The position numbers were made by a program, and so were the translations under genes. 64,000 bases of DNA from an uncultured Alistipes sp. (lineage in GTDB: Bacteria; Bacteroidota; Bacteroidia; Bacteroidales; Rikenellaceae), in contig CASELE010000023.1 of NCBI GenBank assembly GCA_949288735.1, positions 1-64,000 of the forward strand, in the 5' to 3' direction. Under the pieces are notes generated by a model. The model saw only the letters and a program-made list of their open reading frames with translations. It was not told the DNA's origin and searched no databases. Below are positions 28,059-29,052 of the stretch, in pieces; position 1 is the first letter of the stretch; the number at the start of each line of letters is the position of its first letter.

Positions 28059-28772
28059 ATGGACGACAGAATGAAAATCGTGGTATTCACGGGTGCCGGC
28101 ATGAGTGCCGACAGCGGATTGGCGACCTTCCGTGACGCCGACGGCCTTTGGGCCGAGTACCGTATCGAGGAGGTATGCACGCCCGAGGCGCTGGCGCATG
28201 ACAGGACCAAGGTGATCGGCTTTTACAACCTCAGGCGTCGCGAAATGCTGGAGAAGGAGCCCAATGCGGGCCATCGGGCCATCGCGGAACTGGAGCGGCA
28301 TTTCGACGTGGAGGTGGTGACGCAGAATGTGGACAATCTCCACGAGCGGGCGGGTTCCACCCGCGTGCTGCACCTGCACGGCGAGCTGACCAAGCTGCGG
28401 TCGGAGCGCAATCCGGACCATGTCGTCCCGATCGAGGGATGGGAGCAGCGGCTCGATGCGCGGGCTTCGGACGGAGCGTTGCTGCGGCCGCATATCGTCT
28501 TCTTCGGAGAATCGGTTCCGATGTTCGACGAGGCGACGCGCATCGCCTCGCGGGCCGACGTGATGGTCGTGGTCGGCACCTCGCTGGCGGTCTATCCCGC
28601 TGCCGCGCTGGTGCGTTACGTGCGGCCCGAAGTGCCGCTCTATGTGGTCGATCCCGGTACGCCCGATACGGCCATGATACGCAATCCGCTGACACATGTC
28701 CGCGAGCGGGCCGCCGTCGGCGTGCCCCGTCTGGTCGCGGAGCTCGAAGCGCGTTACGGAACGGTACGATGA
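28059..28772 (+). CDS. Sir2-family NAD-dependent deacylase (CobB-like), zinc cysteines missing
   Basis: 237 aa. It removes acyl groups from lysine using NAD. Motifs: TGAGMSADSG (11-20), ATFRDADGLW, QNVDNLHERAG, and the catalytic His107 in LHLHGEL. Tyr56 and Arg59 in FYNLRR match the pair that binds succinyl or malonyl groups in CobB and SIRT5. The four zinc-binding cysteines expected after HGEL are absent (the segment to LRPHIVFFGE has none). The 62-aa gene overlaps its stop by 4 nt. The ATG at 28059 is used; 28071 is an alternative. Confidence 0.92.
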   Translation: MDDRMKIVVFTGAGMSADSGLATFRDADGLWAEYRIEEVCTPEALAHDRTKVIGFYNLRRREMLEKEPNAGHRAIAELERHFDVEVVTQNVDNLHERAGSTRVLHLHGELTKLRSERNPDHVVPIEGWEQRLDARASDGALLRPHIVFFGESVPMFDEATRIASRADVMVVVGTSLAVYPAAALVRYVRPEVPLYVVDPGTPDTAMIRNPLTHVRERAAVGVPRLVAELEARYGTVR

Positions 28773-28957
28773 TCTTCGCGGCGGAGCAGCCGGGCCGATG
28801 GATGGAAAAGAGAGGGGTGCTTCGCTCGCACCTTTTCGGGATCCGCGTCCTCGGAGACCGCTCGTGGATCATCGTGCACGAGGCGAAGGACGGAACGATG
28901 AAACTCTACAGCATCTCCGACAGCGACAAGGTGCTGAGGGGCGTGAAAAAAGGATAG
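28769..28957 (+). CDS. small hypothetical protein coupled to the sirtuin
   Basis: 62 aa. The start ATG overlaps the sirtuin stop (ATGA), which suggests translational coupling. No signal or membrane segment is seen. The sequence is mixed and basic with LGDRSWIIVHEAKDG and TMKLYSISDSDK segments that look like a small beta fold. I do not recognise a family. Its last three codons overlap the minus-strand ncRNA candidate at 28946-29014. Confidence 0.6.
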   Translation: MIFAAEQPGRWMEKRGVLRSHLFGIRVLGDRSWIIVHEAKDGTMKLYSISDSDKVLRGVKKG

Positions 28958-29014
28958 CGGCCTCATTCCCAGTTTCCGGAGATACAATCCGGTCTTTGGA
29001 ACGAAACCGCTACC
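28946..29014 (-). ncRNA. candidate structured small RNA, family unknown
   Basis: Minus strand, about 69 nt. It begins 7 nt after a consensus promoter. P1: GG at 29014 onward, TAGCGG pairing with CCGCTATCC (8 bp, one bulge). P2: TCGTTCC (29004-28998) with GGGAATGA (28970-28963). P3: CCGGA (28992-28988) with TCCGG (28980-28976), 7-nt loop. The P2-P3 internal loop is purine-rich (AAAGA/AAACT). Six T follow P1 (28951-28946), an ideal terminator. There is no sizeable ORF inside. The fold is by eye. Confidence 0.65.
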
Positions 29015-29020
29015 GTACTG

Positions 29021-29052
29021 CAAATATACGTCGGAACTTCGATAAAAACAAA
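29021..29052 (-). promoter_or_regulatory. consensus promoter of the candidate small RNA
   Basis: Minus strand: TTTG (29052-29049), exactly 20 nt, TATATTTG (29028-29021). No minus-strand protein gene lies downstream, so its product is best explained by the RNA at 28946-29014. Confidence 0.75.

Follow-up and report, generated by a model that had tools for sequence, protein, structure and literature searches.

A small RNA gene opposite an LPD3 remnant

The DNA considered here, referred to below as the window (the whole stretch that was analysed), comprises the first 64,000 nucleotides of contig CASELE010000023.1 from an uncultured Alistipes sp. (assembly GCA_949288735.1). Its element of interest is a small RNA gene with a promoter of its own on the minus strand, opposite the end of a 62-codon open reading frame (ORF). 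The final 49 codons of this ORF are what is left, from the C-terminal part, of LPD3 (PF18798), which in Mu-like phages forms a toxin-like C-terminal domain on MuF head proteins. The features of the locus are the following.

29049-29052, minus strand: TTTG, the -33 element (from the sequence)
29021-29028, minus strand: TATATTTG, the -7 box, 20 nt from TTTG (from the sequence)
28946-29018, minus strand: small RNA of ~70 nt (from its fold, covariance-model matches and covariation in its family; start placed to +/-3 nt)
28953-29014, minus strand: hairpin of the small RNA (from its fold)
28988-28992 paired with 28976-28980, minus strand: apical stem CCGGA/UCCGG, closing the UUGUAUC loop
28981-28987, minus strand: apical 7-nt loop UUGUAUC, anticodon-loop-like and nearly invariant across the family
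28946-28951, minus strand: run of six T, an intrinsic terminator, which is the A-run of the LPD3 remnant on the opposite strand
28805-28951, plus strand: LPD3 C-terminal remnant of 49 amino acids (aa), the last 49 codons of the 62-aa ORF at 28769-28957

The succession of TTTG-N20-TATATTTG, a hairpin and six T at 28946-29052 on the minus strand had been reported in a preliminary description of the window; all of it is present in the sequence and, as was also claimed, no minus-strand protein gene follows. By sequence comparison the promoter agrees with the consensus of the Bacteroides primary sigma factor, which has TTTG at about -33 and TAnnTTTG at -7 (PMC7366714), and the pattern occurs seven times in the 64-kb window. 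The hairpin is a strong one, and the stem layout of the preliminary description, an 8-bp pairing of the ends with two further stems in line, gives way to a single continuous lower stem of 17 bp, which fits better because G-U pairs close the gaps; above it lie an internal loop, the 5-bp apical stem and the 7-nt loop. The minimum free energy of this fold is -35.5 kcal/mol (z -5.5; 0 of 200 shuffles equal it), against -25.7 kcal/mol for the plus strand of the same stretch. Energy does not make the element unique: of 659 tiles per strand in this GC-rich window, 3 on the minus strand and 8 on the plus strand fold equally well. It is conservation, not fold energy, that sets it above chance, because the covariance model R2, built from relatives, matches only there in the window (41.9 bits, E 4.5e-8, with the window sequence in the training set) and relatives found through their protein carry the same RNA. 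The score against a second covariance model, R1, is 60.2 bits.

Overlooked in the preliminary description was the nature of the 62-aa gene, a remnant of an LPD3 toxin that has the RNA as its cognate partner. The remnant shares 57% identity with the C-terminal end of a MuF-LPD3 head protein in another genome, G099, and matches positions 75-123 of an LPD3 profile built in this analysis (E 1e-13); the Pfam LPD3 model does not detect it, the remnant being too short. The same three elements (promoter, hairpin and T-run) occur in G099 in antisense orientation, with the MuF gene (F) on one side and the gene for virion morphogenesis (G) on the other. A search of the window's own genome returned neither MuF nor a full LPD3, and the window RNA is therefore an orphan copy.

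The RNA accompanies LPD3 in relatives

The first relatives came from a pattern scan of viral contigs, and R1 was built on six sequences. A search blind to the RNA, made with the LPD3 protein profile alone, yielded 105 loci, 44 of them genomic and 61 on viral contigs, with some phages present in both sets; the titles of the genomic loci name Bacteroidota, except for one metagenome-assembled genome labelled Lachnospiraceae. R1 places an RNA at the 3' end of LPD3, on the opposite strand, in 43 of the 44 genomic loci (38 at E<=0.1) and in 59 of the 61 viral loci (52 at E<=0.1). Two of the exceptions, L117 and L173, have sequences that stop inside or just after LPD3, and the third, L178, gives no match. 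TAnnTTTG is found 20-160 nt beyond the stop codon on the antisense strand in 75 of 78 LPD3 loci and on the sense strand in 2 of 78, TTG or TTTG stands in the -33 range in 58 of the 75 related promoters, and most relatives have a run rich in T after the stem. The RNA gene sits in the gap between LPD3 and the next ORF (>=60 aa), in most cases 80-150 nt long; a small immunity ORF, for which this gap leaves little room, was not seen after LPD3 among ORFs of at least 60 aa, those below 60 aa having not been searched. Mostly there is one RNA per LPD3 locus, and two copies occur in L158 (=L033), L091, L107, L087/L089 and L141. The two copies of L087/L089 have differing loops.

With its TAnnTTTG promoter, long covarying stem, apical GGA-UUGYANN-UCC, T-run and position antisense to an LPD3 3' end, the window element has every feature that marks the family. 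Rfam 15 contains no family at or above its gathering threshold for the window RNA, its relatives or the other RNA types discussed below; the RNA family had been called unknown from the start, and the LPD3-linked RNA is an undescribed one. When relatives were searched by DNA similarity, the only match was in the window's own genome, because the stem sequence turns over fast. Several candidates were dropped along the way: L007, a promoter match in G025, is merely a promoter-like stretch; L025-L030, among 13 viral loci of the pattern scan, were judged by their fold to be chance matches; and L037-L043, weak R1 matches in genomes, are without promoter and fold.

Covariation and a nearly constant apical hairpin

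The alignment of 79 distinct RNAs has standard pairs in 89% of its paired cells, and two-sided changes occur in 18 of the 19 pairs. The covariation score is 0.76, as compared with 0.23 after shuffling and ~0.1 when the partners are slid, and it is the slid control that carries most weight, the alignment having been fitted to the model. G-U outnumbers A-C by 180:21 overall and by 101:1 in the outer helix (helix 1), an excess from which it follows that the promoter-bearing strand is the functional one. That the paired bases covary so strongly in relatives bears out the dedicated, separately promoted RNA of ~70 nt that had been proposed for the window. The sequence of the stem is free. The apical GGA-UUGYANN-UCC hardly varies apart from compensated changes in the apical stem (AGA/UCU, GGG/CCC and AGG/CCU); the conserved site is this motif and not the AAAGA/AAACT internal loops once suggested as a protein or ligand site, which vary freely.

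What might such a hairpin resemble? A 7-nt loop on a 5-bp stem, with U33, G34, Y35 and A36, is reminiscent of a tRNA anticodon arm, and the consensus 13-mer matches the host tRNA-His at 12 of 13 positions, the next best tRNA reaching 9. Identity with one tRNA was not upheld: in the stem tRNA-His fits better than any other, yet the anticodon positions spell GUA/GCA. Loop letter 35 was also placed on the LPD3 tree, where it changes ~13 times with weak clustering; some labels were misread and the result was not used.

RNA type follows the toxin domain

Is the RNA tied to the toxin-like domain or to the head protein that bears it? Among 80 MuF loci gathered by their N-terminal part, R1 matches are confined to nine, those with a clear LPD3 C-terminus. 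Most MuF loci with other C-terminal domains have the same antisense promoter and a different RNA, TAnnTTTG standing 30-130 nt past the stop on the antisense strand of 57 of 75 MuF loci, compared with 4 of 75 on the sense strand and 2% in shuffled sequence. F-G junctions behind other MuF C-terminal domains (L179-L258, e.g. L187, L199, L209, L221 and L186) hold at least five more types of antisense RNA, every one of them found repeatedly with a domain of its own; three of the other toxin clusters have weak Pfam similarity to CdiA_C, under the cut-off. RNAs are more alike when the toxin is shared (<60% identity) than when different toxins sit on MuF parts that are >=60% identical (p 1e-16, to be taken as a guide only, the locus pairs not being independent), and in the latter class 0 of 798 RNA pairs score >=50. 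On the 7.3-kb contig L021 a MuF-LPD3, a solo LPD3 of 136 aa and a MuF that ends in a different domain all have a promoter and RNA to themselves; its five promoter/RNA units beside successive toxin ends (836-1909, 4395, 7054) make up a toxin/RNA cassette array. Where a MuF locus lacks the antisense promoter, the toxin is frequently followed by a longer gap or by a different small ORF, which may encode an immunity protein.

These observations bear on a reading in which the RNA is a cis-antisense regulator that would pair with the late F-G messenger and lower expression of the toxin or head genes, as a type I-like antitoxin or a late-operon switch. The RNA is indeed encoded opposite the F-G junction, in convergent transcription, and is perfectly complementary to read-through late mRNA. 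However, the overlap with the toxin ORF in relatives has a median of only 15 nt and is confined to the 3' end of the ORF, so that the antisense layout of type I toxin-antitoxin systems, which covers the toxin mRNA (usually its start), was not found at these loci; in the window ~12 nt of the 62-aa gene are overlapped, again at the 3' end, which does not support the suggestion that the RNA is that gene's antisense RNA. A cis-antisense regulator would, moreover, require neither the constant apical hairpin nor the covarying stem, would have no need for RNA type to track toxin domain, and would hardly account for orphan copies that persist without the F-G operon. We regard it as unlikely.

Alternatively, the RNA might act on host targets, as a regulatory RNA or as an anti-defence decoy (for a host anticodon nuclease, for example), and simply travel with LPD3. 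The host-type promoter and the anticodon-arm-like loop would suit this role, and phages are described as carrying tRNAs against tRNA-cleaving defences (PMC12409363). Yet such a role would predict neither the near one-to-one linkage with LPD3 nor the swap of RNA type along with toxin type, and PADLOC gave no match among the linked proteins; we hold it to be quite improbable.

CUGUCNCG is common to the RNAs of one other toxin group, on the minus strand downstream of MuF in L186, L191, L200 and L257. The host tRNA-Asp (GUC) has CUGUCAC as its anticodon loop, a likeness spotted only by eye.

Orphan and extra copies

Besides the window element, the same genome holds a second exact copy of the promoter and the 5' half of the RNA (97 bp) at the start of a contig (L002, G000:C32:1-97), followed by sequence that resembles the beginning of a G gene. 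The third copy (L003, G000:C9:4579-4619) is decayed and has a tRNA-Glu gene as its neighbour. Two further chromosomal orphans lie in other genomes, both without a phage: one in G027 (L261), between C1-peptidase-like and glutamine-synthetase-like genes, and one in G298 (L036), together with an LPD3 C-terminal remnant, between ABC-F-like and permease genes. At L116 (2501-2826) the LPD3 frame has stops, yet the RNA is intact (32 bits).

Could all of this be the debris of a mere terminator, or of a DNA or RNA element marking a packaging or transcription boundary in the phage late operon? A hairpin with a T-run at a gene end has that look, and the window copy sits in a decayed phage remnant. On the other hand, selection falls on the promoter-bearing strand, as the pair ratio in helix 1 attests, a terminator within the head operon would point the wrong way, and the RNAs at the corresponding site behind MuF genes with other domains are unrelated. 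In the window, finally, promoter, stem, loop and T-run are intact although the toxin is truncated and the phage is gone. A fossil of this kind is, in our judgement, very improbable indeed. The three orphans (window, G027, G298) would instead match the appearance of retained immunity, three being a small number and recent decay an alternative.

An RNA immunity gene for a phage-borne toxin?

We consider it probable that the window holds an orphaned version of an RNA immunity (antitoxin) gene carried by phages. Behind LPD3, mostly fused to MuF, intact Bacteroidota phages have on the opposite strand a hairpin RNA gene of 60-75 nt with a host-type promoter, and we propose the following scheme for it. 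MuF toxins of temperate phages have been proposed to be injected with the phage DNA (Jamet 2017 PMC5576092), and the MuF-LPD3 head protein would likewise enter along with it. The host-type promoter would supply the RNA in lysogens whether or not the late genes are active, and by neutralising LPD3 the RNA would shield the host cell against toxin, be it injected or produced within the cell. Direct contact with the toxin is probably made by the constant apical hairpin, as a mimic of the anticodon arm in the tRNA that LPD3 would act on. In the window, RNA and promoter are intact while the phage and most of the toxin are gone, which is what continued protection of the cell by the RNA would lead one to expect.

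What the analysis establishes is the RNA with its strand, promoter and covariation, its linkage to LPD3, the matching of RNA type to toxin domain and the orphan state. Several points weigh against the scheme. Expression of the RNA, toxicity of LPD3, its neutralisation and tRNA mimicry are all steps that we infer. LPD3 is listed without a function in the survey of polyvalent phage proteins (Iyer 2017 PMC5512222). Its predicted structure is confident (pLDDT 95); a fold search of PDB with this model gave no significant match, the best relevant one being a chain of a CDI system (7m5f_C, TM 0.44, E 0.16). A PDB sequence search likewise gave no significant match, and because there is no significant structural match the nuclease nature of LPD3 is putative and drawn from context. 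The likeness to tRNA was seen post hoc, with a chance of ~0.6% for a 12/13 match to any host tRNA arm, and loop position 35 alternates between U and C, so that no single tRNA is implied. Lastly, L235, which has LPD3 at the Pfam level, has the antisense promoter and no R1 match.

The immunity gene proposed here shares features with several known systems. As in MuF polymorphic toxins, relatives have a MuF N-terminal head domain, an exchangeable C-terminal toxin-like domain and a partner immediately downstream, in a phage head-gene context of which the window retains the LPD3 C-terminal remnant only. The known partners are small immunity proteins, and in Bacteroidales MuF toxins of different activities, the Bxa family, a small immunity ORF is reported to follow (Alexei 2024 PMC11699363); the LPD3 partner, by contrast, is an antisense-oriented small RNA, usually with no room for an immunity ORF. 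In type III toxin-antitoxin systems (ToxIN, CptIN, TenpIN) the antitoxin RNAs are pseudoknotted, toxin-cut repeats upstream in the toxin operon (PMC5086642). The analogy is that a structured RNA would neutralise a suspected RNA-cleaving protein; the LPD3-linked RNA differs in being a single or occasionally doubled hairpin that lies downstream, on the opposite strand, with its own promoter. The upstream-repeat, single-operon, terminator-split layout was not found at LPD3 loci, nor was a ToxN, CptN or TenpN toxin, Pfam giving LPD3 there with no PADLOC or PDB match. LPD3/PBECR effectors of polyvalent phage proteins have LPD3 in the same head-gene context, and no RNA partner is described there (Iyer 2017 PMC5512222).

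Anticodon nucleases of the colicin E5 type have substrate-mimicking immunity proteins. The likeness, an inhibitor imitating an anticodon loop, is a lead only; here the inhibitor would be RNA, and the nuclease activity of LPD3 is putative.

In the open-access literature searched, preprints excluded, no RNA immunity or antitoxin for polymorphic or MuF toxins was found. Immunity proteins are the factors believed to counter polymorphic toxins. Were RNA to take this role for phage-delivered toxins in gut Bacteroidota, RNA immunity genes would have been missed since gene finders seek ORFs, several kinds of toxin/RNA pairs could be listed at once, and the tolerance of lysogens to injected MuF effectors would be explained. 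Orphan RNAs would then represent acquired immunity, and the family would offer compact RNA inhibitors whose loops may reveal toxin targets. More broadly, it is about evenly balanced, in our estimation, that Mu-like phages of Bacteroidota carry a set of polymorphic toxins, each with its own substrate-mimicking, antisense-oriented RNA, and that chromosomal orphan RNAs are kept as defence, the window element being one of them.

Two RNAs of known families were also observed. The phage RNA c4-2 (RF02944) is present in an LPD3 phage at L091:4960-5047, and the Bacteroidales small SRP RNA (RF04183) lies on the minus strand of the window at 1329-1435.
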